A stretch of DNA of 55,510 bases, taken from assembly GCA_020831585.1 (NCBI GenBank), contig JAFIGE010000011.1, positions 1-55,510 on the forward strand. Reading direction: 5' to 3'. How positions within the stretch are numbered: the stretch's first letter is position 1; each line of letters opens with the position of its first letter. The notes under the pieces were generated by a model that saw only the letters and a program-made list of their open reading frames with translations, searched no databases and was not told the origin of the DNA. Of this stretch, positions 18,091 through 22,953 are shown piece by piece. This stretch comes from Opitutales bacterium. GTDB lineage: Bacteria; Verrucomicrobiota; Verrucomicrobiia; Opitutales; Oceanipulchritudinaceae. A program made the position numbers and the translations under genes.

Positions 18091-18843
18091 ATGAAAGACG
18101 TTGATGTCTTGAGCTATTATCGAAATCCGGAGACCGTCGATCACTACGCCCGGGCCGCCGCAAAATTAGGGCTTTGGCGCTCGGAGGAACTGGTGTTTGC
18201 TTCCGTATTTGATCAGGACGATGGCCTCCTCGAAATCGGTACCGGTGCCGGACGCATCGCCATCGGTCTGGCCGAGCTGGGCTACTCCCGGATTCTCGGT
18301 GTCGACATCTCCCGCGAAATGATCAAGCGGGCTCAGCGCCTCCGGCAAATCCTCGAGTATGCCGTCGCTTTTCAGGTCATGGATGCCCGCTCACTCAAGT
18401 TTGACGATCACGCCTTCGACGGTGCGATTTTCGGATTCAATGGCTTGATGCAGATCCCGGGAAGGGATGAACGCCTCAAGGCCCTCCGGGAAATCCGGCG
18501 GGTGGTTCGGCCCGGCGGATATTTCGTCTTTACCACGCACGACCGCCGCGTCGGGCCCTACAAGCGGTTTTGGAAAGAAGAAGCTCGCCGCTGGGACGAG
18601 GGCAAACAAGACAAGGCTCTCCTGGAGTTTGGAGATAAATACGAAGAGACGGAATCGGGCCGCTTGTATGTTCACATTCCTTTGCCGGATGAAGTCCGCG
18701 CCGCTCTCAAGGAAACCGGCTGGAAGTGCGAATCAGATACCCTCCGCTCGGAAATCACGGATGAACCCCCGGAAATACGGGCCTTCTCCGATGAATGCCG
18801 GTTCTGGGTGGCCCGCAATCCCGAAACCGGTGAGGGAGCTTAG
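18091..18843 (+). CDS. Class I SAM-dependent methyltransferase
   Basis: The protein has 250 residues with the Rossmann methyltransferase motifs: LLEIGTGAGRIAIGLAELG (motif I, SAM binding), ILGVDISREMI (acidic end of strand 2), FQVMDARSLKF, and FDGAIFGFNGLMQIPG followed by VVRPGGYFVFTTHD. The first 40 residues (YYRNPETVDHYARAAA) resemble small-molecule methyltransferases. The substrate is unknown; a role in modifying a polysaccharide or lipid is only suggested by the upstream export genes, from which a terminator separates it. Its 3' end overlaps the convergent AP2-domain gene by 4 nt. Confidence 0.85.
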   Translation: MKDVDVLSYYRNPETVDHYARAAAKLGLWRSEELVFASVFDQDDGLLEIGTGAGRIAIGLAELGYSRILGVDISREMIKRAQRLRQILEYAVAFQVMDARSLKFDDHAFDGAIFGFNGLMQIPGRDERLKALREIRRVVRPGGYFVFTTHDRRVGPYKRFWKEEARRWDEGKQDKALLEFGDKYEETESGRLYVHIPLPDEVRAALKETGWKCESDTLRSEITDEPPEIRAFSDECRFWVARNPETGEGA

Positions 18844-19337
18844 GAAGCCGATTTCAGCGGTTTCCGCATCCTCATCATCACCCGCACCACTTCTTCCCCG
18901 TGGATTTCCTGCAACATCCGCTTGCGGTGCTCCACCGCCATTTGGAAGGCCTTCTTTTCGCCGTATTTCCGAATCGAAAAGGAGGTGCACTTTTGCACCC
19001 CGGGACTCGGTCGCCAGCTAACCGAATAGCATTCATTGATTTTCCCGTTGGCCCCTGTTTTCGCCGTTCGGCAGACTCCCAGAATCCCGGTTGAGTTACG
19101 GGCATCCCGGAAAACGACCCGCCGCGCCCGCGGCTTTAGAGGAATCTCTTTTAGGCCGGCAAGCAATTCGTCGCGGTAGACCCTCGCCTGCATGAAGGAC
19201 GCCTCCCTCCCTCCGCACTTCCGGTCGCTGAAGAGCCGGGAATGCGTCTTTCCGTTCCGGTATCCCCGCACGAACCAACCGTGGGTAGATCCCGAATCAA
19301 TTCGGCTAATGCCTTTCTCTCTGATTTTGTCCGTCAT
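18840..19337 (-). CDS. Protein with two AP2/ERF-like DNA-binding domains
   Basis: The 165-residue protein contains two copies of the AP2-like pattern. The first, at about residues 10-62, is GISRIDSGSTHGWFVRGYRN, then FSDRKCGG and an Arg-Asp-Glu-Leu helix. The second, at about 81-147, is STGILGVCRTAKTGANGK, then YSVSWRP, SFSIRKYGEKKAF and a basic helix. The AP2 fold is a three-stranded sheet plus helix that binds DNA. Bacterial members are best known inside homing endonucleases and as small stand-alone proteins of unknown role. No nuclease motif is seen here. The C-terminus is Met/Arg-rich. It is a lone gene; the non-coding region to its right must hold its promoter. Confidence 0.75.
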   Translation of the reverse strand: MTDKIREKGISRIDSGSTHGWFVRGYRNGKTHSRLFSDRKCGGREASFMQARVYRDELLAGLKEIPLKPRARRVVFRDARNSTGILGVCRTAKTGANGKINECYSVSWRPSPGVQKCTSFSIRKYGEKKAFQMAVEHRKRMLQEIHGEEVVRVMMRMRKPLKSAS

Positions 19338-19763
19338 CAGGGTACTTTCAACTGAAGGGTAGGGTATAGACTGAGCGCCCCGACACGTTCTCTGGAGCGA
19401 TTATTATAAGGTAGGGTAGCGTACAGTTCCTTCGCCGTTGACTATACATTGGGGCGGTCAGCAACTCTGTGGAAAGCTTCCCGGTGGAGCGAGCGCGTGC
19501 CACAGACCTAATCCAATAAGCAGACACCGGTAAGCCGACTTGAGCCTTTGTACAATAGCAGCTTGGAAAAGTCGGGAATTAAACGCAAACGCCCCTCTTC
19601 GGCAAGGATATTTTCCCGGGTTCCTCTTCGAAGCCGGGGCTCTCTTTCCAGTGAAGCAATAGCCTGAGCGCGAAAGACTTAAAGAATGTGCTAAACACGT
19701 ATACGGTTTTGCACAATGAATTGTTGATAAAGCAACGGGTTGACGGCGGGTGTGCTGTGTGTG
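19338..19763. other. Non-coding stretch of about 425 bp
   Basis: No reading frame with family-like content is present on either strand. It must carry the promoter of the AP2-domain gene. The 9-mer GGTAGGGTA occurs twice (19358-19366 and 19410-19418). The right half is AT-richer than its neighbours. I see no tRNA cloverleaf and no RNA family I recognise. A small RNA cannot be excluded. Confidence 0.5.
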
Positions 19764-20564
19764 TTAAGGGAGGGCGAGAGTTTGGAGAATGATGGCGAGG
19801 GCTATGGCCAGAACGGAGAGGGCGAAGGTTCGGCGGAGCCAGAGGGTGGGGACGTGGCGTTTGGTGGCGGTGCCGATGACCATGCCGACGAAGGCACCGA
19901 CCATGAACAGAGCCGCGGTGTCCCAGGCGATAACGAGGTCCGCGCTCTGGTTGGCAAGGAAGCTGACGGCGCTGAGAATGGCGATGCTGAGGAGGCTGGT
20001 GGAGAGGGCGGCTTGGAGGGGGAGGCTGGCGACGGTCATGAGGGCCGGCACGAGGAGAAAGCCGCCCCCGACGCCGAACATCCCGGCGAGCACCCCGGCT
20101 CCGGCCCCGGCGACGATGAGCTTACCCGCGCAGCTCGCGTGGAAGCGGGGGCGCGTCTCGCCCGGTTCAATGCCGCAACTGAAGCGCGAAAGGGGCACTT
20201 CGGTTGCACTGCCGCCGCCCCGCAGGAAACGCAGGGCGATGAAGATCATGAGCCCGGCGAAGAGCAGCAGAACGACGGTTTCGGGGAGGGTGCGCCCCAG
20301 CCATGCGCCGAGCGGTGCCCCGAAAATTCCCCCGGCCCCGAGGACCGCACCGGCCCGCCAAAAGACGGTTGTGCGCTGCAGGACCGCGCCAAAGAGGCTG
20401 GTGAGCCCAACAACGGCCAGGGATACAGTGACGGCTCCGCGAAGGTCGAATCCGAGTCCGTAGAGGAGCAACGGGACGGCGAGGATGGAGCCGCCACCCC
20501 CGGTGAGGCCGAGCGCGAGACCGACGAGGAGCCCGCTTGAGATGGCTTCCCAAAGCAGGTTCAA
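19764..20564 (-). CDS. TauE/SafE family sulfite/sulfonate exporter
   Basis: The 266-residue protein is nearly all membrane helices. It shows the duplicated Gly-rich motif of the family: LALGLTGGGGSILAVPLLLYG near the N-terminus (a part quoted) and GVLAGMFGVGGGFLLVPAL in the second half. About eight helices are predicted by eye. Members move sulfite, sulfoacetate or related anions across the inner membrane. Its start overlaps the stop of the MBL-rhodanese gene by 4 nt. With a persulfide-oxidising-type enzyme upstream, export of the sulfite produced is the most economical role. Confidence 0.88.
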   Translation of the reverse strand: MNLLWEAISSGLLVGLALGLTGGGGSILAVPLLLYGLGFDLRGAVTVSLAVVGLTSLFGAVLQRTTVFWRAGAVLGAGGIFGAPLGAWLGRTLPETVVLLLFAGLMIFIALRFLRGGGSATEVPLSRFSCGIEPGETRPRFHASCAGKLIVAGAGAGVLAGMFGVGGGFLLVPALMTVASLPLQAALSTSLLSIAILSAVSFLANQSADLVIAWDTAALFMVGAFVGMVIGTATKRHVPTLWLRRTFALSVLAIALAIILQTLALP

Positions 20565-21988
20565 TGGGTCATGCCTTTCGCTTCGGCGATGCGTTCGCAG
20601 GCTTCGCAGACGCCATCGACATGGACGACTTTCCAGCCTTCGCGCTGGAGGTAGGCCGTAGCGAGGGCGGCGCGTCTCCCGGAGCCGCAGTGCACGTAGA
20701 GGATCTCTTTGTCGGTCGGCAGCTCATCCTTCCGCACGCGCAGCCGGGTGTAGGGGAGGTGGAGCGCTCCCGGCAAATGCCCTTCGTCGAACTCCGCCTT
20801 GGTGCGGACGTCGAGTACATTTCCCGCGGACGCGGCTTCCTCTCCATTCCAGTCGGGGAAGTCGATTTTTTCGATCGAGGCGGTGAGTCGGTTGGCCGTT
20901 TTGAGATCGGAAGCGAGGATCCAGCCCGCCACGTGGTCGTAGCCGATGCGGTAAAGCTGGCGGAGAGCGCAATCGAGGTCGGATTCGCGTTCGAGGACGA
21001 GGCGAATGGTTTCGTCGGGTTCGACGTAGGATCCAGCTACGACCGAGAAGTAAGGTGTGCGCAGGGGCGCGAAGAGCGCCCCCGGAAAATGTCCTTCGGC
21101 AAAGCTGGTCGCGTCGCCCCGTGCATCGAGAATGGGGCCGTCTTTCCCGGCAAAGGTTTCGGGCGTGAGCCGGGGAGCCTTGGGCAAACCGCCGGTAACC
21201 TGAATCCCGTCCCGGTTGACCTGTTTCATGCGGGCGAAGTAGGGCGGCGGCTCGGGCTGGCCGGAGAGAATGAATTCGACGAAATCACCGCCGGTCTTCT
21301 GGGCGCGTTTGAGCGCACCGTTGAAGCGCCGTTCATAGCCCATGGTGGAGGTGGGCACGGCACCAAGCGATTTGCCGCAGGCACTGCCCGCCCCGTGGGC
21401 GGGAAGGATTTGCACAAACTCGCCGAGGTGGGCGAGGCGCTCGCGCAGCGAGGTTTCGAGCTTTTCGGCGGCCGGGCGCATCGACCCCGCCTGACCGGCG
21501 GCCGTCTCCAGCAGGTCCGGTCGACCCACGTCACCGACAAAAAGAAAATCCCCCGTGGCCAGGGCGATGGGTTCGTTTGCGCCGCCTCCCAGGTCGGTGA
21601 TGAGAAAACTCAGGTGTTCGGGGGTGTGCCCGGGCGTATGGACGGCCTCCACTTCAATCTTGCCCACGCGGAAACGGTCGCCGTGGCGCAAGTAGGTTAC
21701 GTTGGCGCGGTCCTTCGGCCAGGCGTAGGTCCAGTCGGGACCGCCCTCGGCGGAAATATAGAGGTGCACGTCCGGATCGGCGGCCAACTCCGCTCCACCG
21801 CTGACAAAGTCGGCGTGGATGTGCGTTTCGGCCACGGCGGTGATGCGGAGGTCGTTGGCCGCCGCTAGGTCGCGGTAGGTATCGACGTCCCTCAGGGGGT
21901 CGATGATTACGGCTTCGCCTGTCTTTTGGCAACCCACGAGATACGCGTATTGGGCCAGATAGGGATCAAAAATTTGACGTAGAAACAT
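20561..21988 (-). CDS. MBL-fold persulfide dioxygenase-like protein fused to rhodanese domains
   Basis: The 475-residue protein starts with a metallo-beta-lactamase domain of the ETHE1 type: ETHIHADFVSGG (H56, H58, D60), HTPGHTPEHLSF, ATGDFLFVGDVGRPDLL and LPAHGAGSACG. A first rhodanese-like domain (about 265-360) lacks a catalytic cysteine. The second (about 375-465) has the active loop VHCGSGRRA. The last helix reads GVCEACERI, a CxxC pair where most rhodaneses have GGFEAW. ETHE1/CstB-type proteins oxidise glutathione or coenzyme A persulfide to sulfite and exchange sulfane sulfur. It lies 45 nt after the rhodanese-DUF2892 gene and couples to the exporter gene. Confidence 0.9.
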   Translation of the reverse strand: MFLRQIFDPYLAQYAYLVGCQKTGEAVIIDPLRDVDTYRDLAAANDLRITAVAETHIHADFVSGGAELAADPDVHLYISAEGGPDWTYAWPKDRANVTYLRHGDRFRVGKIEVEAVHTPGHTPEHLSFLITDLGGGANEPIALATGDFLFVGDVGRPDLLETAAGQAGSMRPAAEKLETSLRERLAHLGEFVQILPAHGAGSACGKSLGAVPTSTMGYERRFNGALKRAQKTGGDFVEFILSGQPEPPPYFARMKQVNRDGIQVTGGLPKAPRLTPETFAGKDGPILDARGDATSFAEGHFPGALFAPLRTPYFSVVAGSYVEPDETIRLVLERESDLDCALRQLYRIGYDHVAGWILASDLKTANRLTASIEKIDFPDWNGEEAASAGNVLDVRTKAEFDEGHLPGALHLPYTRLRVRKDELPTDKEILYVHCGSGRRAALATAYLQREGWKVVHVDGVCEACERIAEAKGMTH

Positions 21989-22033
21989 GGTGTCCTCCGA
22001 AAGGTGAGGGTTTTTGAGTTCGATGGGCGGGGC

Positions 22034-22591
22034 TCAGACCTTGCAGGAAGGGCAGGTGGCTCCGCGCTGGTTCCAGGGCATACGGGCGAGGAGCATGCCC
22101 ATGCCGCAGGTGTCGGTGATTCCGGCGAAGACAAGCCCGGCTCCGACAAAGCCCGGCACGACGAGGAACCACGGCTGCACAAACACCCCGAGGAGCGTGC
22201 CCGCAAAGACCATCGCCCCAGCGGCGATGCGCACCTGCCGCTCCAGCGACATGGTCTTGGCCCCGCGATTCACCGGCAGGTTGGCCGCCTCCCACGCGAG
22301 AATGCCTCCGTCGAGCACGTGCACTGACGAGACCCCCGCGGCGGCCAGCTTCTCCGCTGCCTGGCTGGCGCGGTTGCCACTCCGGCACACGACCACGCAG
22401 GCGCGGTCCCCCGCGAGGTTCTTTACCGCCGCCGCATCCAGATTGGAGAGCGGATGCAGCACCGAGCCATCAATGTGGTGCTCCGTGTATTCGGCCGGTG
22501 TGCGGACATCGAGCCAAACGGCGTTCTTGTGGCCCGCCGCTTCAGCTGCGGGAATTTTCGTGATCGGTGATTTCATTGTTGTGTTTTCCAT
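22034..22591 (-). CDS. Rhodanese-DUF2892 membrane sulfurtransferase (YgaP-like)
   Basis: This 185-residue protein has an N-terminal rhodanese domain (WLDVRTPAEYTEHHIDGS; active loop VVVCRSGNRAS) and a C-terminal DUF2892 membrane hairpin (about 120-165, RIAAGAMVFAGTLLGVF and FLVVPGFVGAGLVFAG). This is the YgaP layout: a cytoplasmic sulfurtransferase held at the inner membrane. The C-terminus ends in ATCPSC, adding a possible redox pair. It is the first gene of the sulfur operon and is divergent from the ArsR regulator across 38 nt. A second ATG at 22576 gives a product five residues shorter. Confidence 0.88.
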   Translation of the reverse strand: MENTTMKSPITKIPAAEAAGHKNAVWLDVRTPAEYTEHHIDGSVLHPLSNLDAAAVKNLAGDRACVVVCRSGNRASQAAEKLAAAGVSSVHVLDGGILAWEAANLPVNRGAKTMSLERQVRIAAGAMVFAGTLLGVFVQPWFLVVPGFVGAGLVFAGITDTCGMGMLLARMPWNQRGATCPSCKV

Positions 22592-22609
22592 GATTGTGTG
22601 CCTACATTA

Positions 22610-22631
22610 CGATATTACTATTTAGCGATAT
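22610..22631. promoter_or_regulatory. Candidate ArsR operator between the divergent sulfur genes
   Basis: The hexamer CGATAT occurs twice in this 22-bp AT-rich stretch (22610-22615 and 22626-22631); the second copy overlaps the regulator's start codon. ATAT-containing dyads at such a place are usual for ArsR/SmtB repressors. The 38-nt gap is the only space for both promoters. Confidence 0.35.
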
Positions 22632-22953
22632 GCAAGCGAAAAATGAAGAATCGATGACGGACGCGCAACTGGAGGAATCGGCGCGATTGTTTGGGATCCT
22701 CTCGGATGCCTCTCGACTGCGGATTTTGCGCGAGTTGCTGGCGGGCGCTTATACGGTGACGGAGTTGATGGACCGTACGGGATTGAAGCAGGGCAACCTT
22801 TCCAAGCACCTTGGCGTGTTGCTTCAGGCTGGATTTGTTTACCGGGAGCAAGACGGGAATTTCGCGCGTTACCACCTCGTCGATCCCTGTGTGAAGGAGC
22901 TTTGCCGCCTGATGTGCGGGCGTATCCGCGAGCGGGCTCGCTCGCTGTTGTAG
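22630..22953 (+). CDS. ArsR/SmtB family transcriptional regulator, probably thiol-sensing
   Basis: The start at 22630 gives 107 residues. The winged helix-turn-helix is clear: LFGILSDASRLRILREL, TVTELMDRTGLKQGNLSKHL (recognition helix LKQGNLSKHLGVL), and the wing VYREQDGNFARYHLVD. Three cysteines cluster in the last helix (C87, C92, C96 in DPCVKELCRLMCG). No N-terminal metal-site cysteines are present. Regulators next to rhodanese/persulfide genes (BigR, SqrR) sense polysulfide through cysteine pairs, so this one probably represses the divergent sulfur operon until persulfides appear. The in-frame start at 22594 adds 12 hydrophobic residues that do not fit the family. Confidence 0.87.
   Translation: MQAKNEESMTDAQLEESARLFGILSDASRLRILRELLAGAYTVTELMDRTGLKQGNLSKHLGVLLQAGFVYREQDGNFARYHLVDPCVKELCRLMCGRIRERARSLL

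Follow-up and report, generated by a model that had tools for sequence, protein, structure and literature searches.

The AP2 fold is best known from plants, whose AP2 proteins are transcription factors, and from malaria parasites; members of its Pfam family, PF00847, include plant AP2/ERF, ApiAP2 and HNH-AP2 proteins. In the usual account, plant transcription factors acquired the fold from homing nucleases (Magnani 2004, cited by PMC10448857). Here we describe a bacterial gene for a stand-alone protein with two predicted AP2-like domains in tandem, found in an Opitutales bacterium (assembly GCA_020831585.1) within a 55,510-nt window, which is the whole stretch of DNA analysed (positions 1 to 55,510 of contig JAFIGE010000011.1). 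The gene occupies 18840..19337 on the minus strand, begins with ATG and encodes 165 residues, as judged from its open reading frame, Pfam, relatives and an AlphaFold model. Overall, the evidence argues that its product is probably, though by no means securely, a chromosomal, vertically inherited tandem-AP2 DNA-binding protein, with global regulator or nucleoid-associated protein as its most likely role. Among the literature matches listed, read as titles and abstract openings with most subscription journals outside coverage, there was no study of a stand-alone bacterial AP2 protein.

Domain architecture and predicted fold

A reading of the sequence alone had proposed two AP2-like domains and the absence of a nuclease domain, and both points were confirmed, within the limits of prediction, by Pfam, by the model and by tandem-AP2 matches in the PDB. 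The Pfam evidence concerns domain 2, where PF00847 matches residues 106-142 (E 6.8e-7) with a score of 29.9 bits, short of its cut-off of 33.3; the window protein has no Pfam match in domain 1. Since the score lies under the cut-off, we file the protein as AP2-like. No Pfam family besides AP2 appeared up to E 10, and there was no HNH nuclease among the matches; an NCBIfam search returned nothing, and a PHROGs search gave a single match at E 0.13. Two PDB sequence matches to polymerase basic protein 2 (E 1 and 1.2) were taken as chance.

An AlphaFold model built on a 17-row alignment, with a mean predicted local distance difference test score (pLDDT) of 85.2 and a predicted template modelling score (pTM) of 0.54, places an AP2 fold in each half, as a three-strand sheet packed on one helix. 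The sequence-only reading would have been refuted by a structure prediction without an AP2 fold in either half, an outcome that did not occur. The beta3-alpha elements of domain 1 (residues 8-64; 19146..19316, minus strand), delimited from the model, fold matches and strand conservation, comprise strands at residues 10-14, 19-27 and 30-37 and a helix at 44-64. Those of domain 2 (residues 84-146; 18900..19088, minus strand), delimited from the model, strand conservation and the Pfam match below cut-off, comprise strands at 88-94, 100-111 and 114-121 and a helix at 127-146. By ten-residue blocks, pLDDT is 84-96 over residues 11-70, 63 in a loose linker (residues 71-80) and 87-95 over residues 91-150. 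The model and column entropy mark residues 147-165 (18843..18899, minus strand) as a variable C-terminal tail, with pLDDT below 50 at residues 162-165. Aligned with each other by hhalign, the two domains match over 33 columns at E 1.3e-4, with a probability of only 54%.

Foldseek ranks first the DNA-bound tandem AP2 domains of PfSIP2 (PDB 6sy0; E 2.1e-4, 15% identity), and its three matches with E below 0.001 are two PfSIP2 chains and one Toxoplasma mitoribosomal chain. The top VIA-align Z values (8.8, 8.5 and 8.3) go to three AP2-bearing chains of the Toxoplasma mitoribosome, with 6.6 to SIP2, 5.8 to plant WRI1 and, among lower rows, 4.9 and 4.5 to integrase arm-binding domains, where values below 8 can reflect mere common arrangement. 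Root-mean-square deviations across both domains are large in both programs (13-17 Å), as expected if the two domains are set differently. The mitoribosomal matches raise the alternative that the protein binds RNA or the ribosome through its AP2 fold, as in Toxoplasma, and a basic, slow-evolving, partnerless gene would suit such a function. We nonetheless regard it as decidedly unlikely, given that Foldseek puts DNA-bound SIP2 first, if narrowly (2.1e-4 versus 2.3e-4), that the protein has a short variable tail only, and that codon usage is ordinary in six of ten genomes.

Nine relatives were also scanned with Pfam; AP2 passes the cut-off in two, matches at E below 0.001 in another five and goes unmatched in the last two. 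A domain of the domain 1 type in a fused relative matches AP2 at E 1.4e-4, below cut-off. Kinship to AP2 is supported by the predicted fold and by the two relatives over the cut-off.

Conservation, selection and the proposed role

Within a genome of 5.28 Mb the gene is present as a sole copy, on one contig (search to E 1); a Pfam AP2 scan of the whole genome found this gene (25.6 bits), one further place at E 0.2 and nothing else. A match is present in 30 of 89 kin genomes, 16 of them among the 17 genomes of its own family, where the gene is full-length in 15, reduced to domain 1 in one and absent from one (84% complete). The remaining 14 matches are spread over 72 genomes of the order's other families.

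Selection between relatives is purifying. The ratio of nonsynonymous to synonymous substitution rates (dN/dS) ranged from 0.008 to 0.058 in those 12 of the 16 full-length near-relative pairs that had measurable dS, with dS up to 2.4 and some values near saturation, saturation in the other four, and the window's copy in none of the pairs. Across 45 pairs from 10 genomes, the window's included, mean identity of a 139-residue core was 74.9% versus 64.5% for ribosomal protein L3, in a comparison that omits the variable ends of the AP2-like protein and takes L3 from stop to stop. Core and L3 identities are correlated over these pairs (r 0.83), as vertical descent would give.

These results bear on a suggestion of the sequence-only reading, that the gene may be a leftover of a selfish element. 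Decay does not fit its own family: the single copy, presence in 16 of 17 family genomes, dN/dS of 0.008-0.058 between relatives and a core less variable than L3 together argue against a leftover in that sense. The mobile, decaying distribution of the HNH/AP2 homing endonuclease kind was likewise not found, patchiness being confined to the other families (14 of 72).

Column entropy over 53 orthologues is lowest in the predicted sheets. Mean values for the three strands are 0.07, 0.26 and 0.42 bits in domain 1 and 0.74, 0.55 and 0.37 bits in domain 2, compared with 1.64 and 1.15 bits for the respective helices and 2.32 bits for the C-terminal tail. In AP2-DNA complexes the sheet contacts DNA, and near-invariant strands beside variable helices are what a conserved surface for nucleic acid would show. 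Sequence-specific binding of double-stranded DNA through the sheet would fit this pattern, which bears on it only indirectly. The protein is also strongly basic (isoelectric point 10.7, with 37 Lys or Arg versus 15 Asp or Glu residues).

Of the functions first proposed for the gene, a DNA-binding regulator therefore stands as the likeliest class, as predicted from fold, isoelectric point and near-invariant strands; a decayed leftover and, as described below, an upstream GGTAGGGTA target do not. Small, basic, with a DNA-binding fold by prediction and no effector domain, the protein has the features looked for in a nucleoid-associated protein. A role as global regulator or nucleoid-associated protein is suggested because the protein has no sensor or effector domain, has no fixed partner gene and is near-unchanged across the family. 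The three-stranded sheet of each domain would lie on DNA, the two domains would recognise two adjacent half-sites, as PfSIP2 does, and the protein would act globally, binding DNA and bending or blocking it. Codon usage gives mixed evidence for abundance, adaptation exceeding the 90th percentile of sampled genes in four of ten genomes (94.5, 91.2, 93.1 and 98.5). The proposed role is further favoured by relatives in three genomes of one genus (L115-L117, family f33), AP2-AP2 proteins with C-terminal Lys-Ala-Pro tails of 86-96 residues whose make-up of 36-38% Lys, 39-45% Ala and 11-14% Pro is like that of histone-H1-like tails, and by a Thermoflexales relative that ends in KKAAKKAAK.

Several observations weigh against this assignment. 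Codon adaptation is ordinary in the other six genomes (73.8, 60.6, 50.0, 48.3, 44.3 and 24.3 percentile, the 50.0 resting on only 8 background genes and the 24.3 on 37, every one of them in the window); the lowest value is that of the gene's own genome, in which ribosomal protein genes and background genes hardly differ. The protein does not reach the curated AP2 cut-off (29.9 bits, or 25.6 in the whole-genome scan), and AP2 falls short of it in seven of the nine relatives scanned. Most genomes of the order's other families lack the gene, with 14 of 72 having a match, and one genome of its own family keeps domain 1 only. A de novo motif search over 48 of 53 upstream regions, five near-copies having been dropped, found no family-wide motif, only clade-level repeats; the best real dyads score 8.5 versus 6.4 for the best of one shuffled control. 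The proteins with H1-like tails are distant relatives (E 5e-18 to 7e-20) of a window protein that has no such tail; L111-L113, of the same family, are tail-less, so that tails occur in three of the six f33 loci read, all from one genus, and in the one tail-bearing protein scanned Pfam calls no AP2.

The upstream region and neighbouring genes

The sequence-only reading had further pointed to a repeated sequence, GGTAGGGTA, in the long non-coding region upstream as a possible target of the protein. The pair is real, with copies at 19358 and 19410 where 0.02 would be expected in the window, and two copies of a 14-nt direct repeat lie 57 bp apart (19356-19369 and 19413-19426; 19356..19426, plus strand), each with GGTAGGGTA or an in-register near copy. 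Two GGTAGGGTA sites within 61 bp would suit a local transcription factor that governs a small regulon and might control itself through the pair. AP2 proteins are transcription factors in Apicomplexa (PMC11742926), and a related genus keeps up to six single-AP2 matches per genome, a set of six that by eye seems shared between two genomes; both points favour such a regulator. The repeat, however, is unconserved. In the upstream 320 nt, GGTAGGGTA occurs in one of 30 loci, the window's own, with a 6-nt part of it in two of the other 29; genome-wide it is scarcer than its reversed control (10 occurrences versus 47), and none of 16 other genomes matches the 426-bp upstream region. The target proposal is thus unsupported, and GGTAGGGTA was set aside as a conserved site. 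With no fixed partner gene either, and conservation above that of L3 being high for such a role, a local regulator appears unlikely, and we retain a global chromosome-binding protein as the preferred reading.

Other features of this region were also surveyed. Over 18700-20000, an Rfam scan found no RNA family up to E 1, and a promoter scan found three promoter-like sites versus 0.5 in shuffles; the nearby site on the strand of the AP2-like gene overlaps its start codon. Positions 19637..19717 (no strand assigned) recur in part at two other places in the genome (78% over 82 nt and 83% over 53 nt) and are taken as a dispersed-repeat remnant. The copies lie at L247 and L248, the latter near debris that resembles, by eye, a group II intron reverse transcriptase.

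Among 60 loci there is no fixed partner gene. The commonest neighbour cluster, which reads by eye as TrpF, is present in 17, and the remaining neighbours are clade-specific and housekeeping-like by eye. In the window, a methyltransferase gene identified by Pfam (18091-18843, plus strand) is convergent to the AP2-like gene, and the ends of the two coding sequences overlap by 4 bp. Upstream of the AP2-like gene lies a TauE permease gene (19764-20564, minus strand), part of a cluster that by name handles sulfur (19764-22953: TauE permease, beta-lactamase-rhodanese, rhodanese-YgaP and an ArsR-type regulator).

Relatives and comparison with known systems

Named relatives come mostly from Opitutales and Puniceicoccales or Puniceicoccaceae (Verrucomicrobiota), with Coraliomargarita among the carriers (L047). 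A phylum-wide draw gave matches in 59 of 387 genomes, many of them weak and single-domain. Counting the Thermoflexales carrier itself, a draw from its phylum, Chloroflexota, gave 24 of 301. The set of whole genomes overlaps with that of named contigs (L007 and L036, for instance, lie on contigs of equal size), and their counts are not additive. Three AP2 domains occur in seven Chloroflexota genomes (L187-L193). Three Opitutales bins carry a single-AP2 gene besides a full-length copy; these 74-residue paralogues (L085, L086 and L087) have NGET in place of NGKT, and the gene upstream of each reads by eye as phosphofructokinase. They were considered as pseudogenes, a status rejected on the intact frame in all three copies and dN of 0.031-0.034. 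Another genus has up to six single-AP2 matches per genome; the six genes in each of two genomes (L134-L145; G212 and G265, genus g73) pair by sequence and mostly by context, and by eye they form a settled paralogue family. A second AP2 domain suspected by eye in L118 was not found by Pfam and was dropped.

Other relatives are fused to enzymes. A single AP2 domain is joined in frame to a cytidine deaminase in a Chloroherpetonaceae metagenome-assembled genome (L089:9977-10633, 218 residues read; also L172), with the deaminase above its cut-off (E 7.4e-19) and AP2 below (E 1.4e-4); that genome also carries a two-domain copy (L166). In the same order as the window, a 308-residue AP2-AP2-HNH protein (L114/L150, G338) passes the Pfam cut-offs for both AP2 and HNH, the latter at its C-terminus. 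Because of this relative, a remote origin shared with AP2-HNH nucleases is possible. On the corresponding explanation, the DNA-binding half of an AP2-HNH homing endonuclease was domesticated or survives as a relic in this gene, or else the gene is cargo of a mobile element. In its favour, phages are known to carry HNH-AP2 homing genes (PMC10448857), relatives occur in 24 plasmid records (18 from Agrobacterium), and an IMG/VR contig carries a copy interrupted by an internal stop (L120:4950-5549), some 2 kb away from a gene for a phage major head protein and with a head protease on the same contig. Further along that contig, another gene resembles, by eye, that of a group II intron reverse transcriptase. 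Nonetheless, the window protein has no match among 50,697 phage records, the gene is single-copy and under purifying selection between relatives, and its neighbours look housekeeping-like and differ by clade. The HNH domain is, moreover, N-terminal in the known homing genes (PMC10448857) and C-terminal in the AP2-AP2-HNH relative. For the window's gene, we consider this origin very improbable, although remote descent is possible.

It is also conceivable, though less likely than not, that stand-alone tandem, single and triple AP2 proteins of Verrucomicrobiota, Chloroflexota and others constitute a class of chromosome-binding proteins not yet described in bacteria, a counterpart of eukaryotic AP2 factors, with one H1-tailed branch compacting DNA and others joined to a nuclease or a cytidine deaminase. 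If so, AP2 would be an old bacterial nucleoid fold and not chiefly a selfish-gene part. A deep tree of 25 rows has 3 of 22 inner branches well supported, and its long branches meet; we therefore make no claim on the order of fusions.

Among described proteins, PfSIP2 of Plasmodium falciparum likewise has two AP2 domains in tandem. Identity is 15%, and the tandem of SIP2 is part of a larger parasite protein, whereas the window protein consists of little besides its two domains. The likeness to PF00847 lies in the match of domain 2 and the predicted fold of both domains; the difference, in a score below the curated cut-off and an unmatched domain 1. Hc1 and the tails of mycobacterial HupB are histone-H1-like bacterial DNA proteins, and here the likeness is to the Lys-Ala-Pro tails of distant relatives, not to the window protein. 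Closer in architecture are AP2 domain-containing proteins on bacterial plasmids (for example Desulfocapsa NC_020305 and Rhizobium NZ_CP104990): in 15 of 24 records the match spans 80% or more of the query, and hence both domains, with 27-37% identity among the 20 matches listed. The Desulfocapsa coding sequence has 147 residues; these proteins differ in being plasmid-borne and in some cases longer (313 residues in Rhizobium). Phage AP2-HNH homing endonucleases (IPA-HNH) share the AP2 domain and have an N-terminal HNH domain (PMC10448857), in contrast to the window protein, with no HNH by Pfam and no phage-record match. The window protein, free-standing and less variable than L3 within its family, suggests that the AP2 fold does steady cellular work in bacteria, a suggestion testable in the carrier Coraliomargarita.
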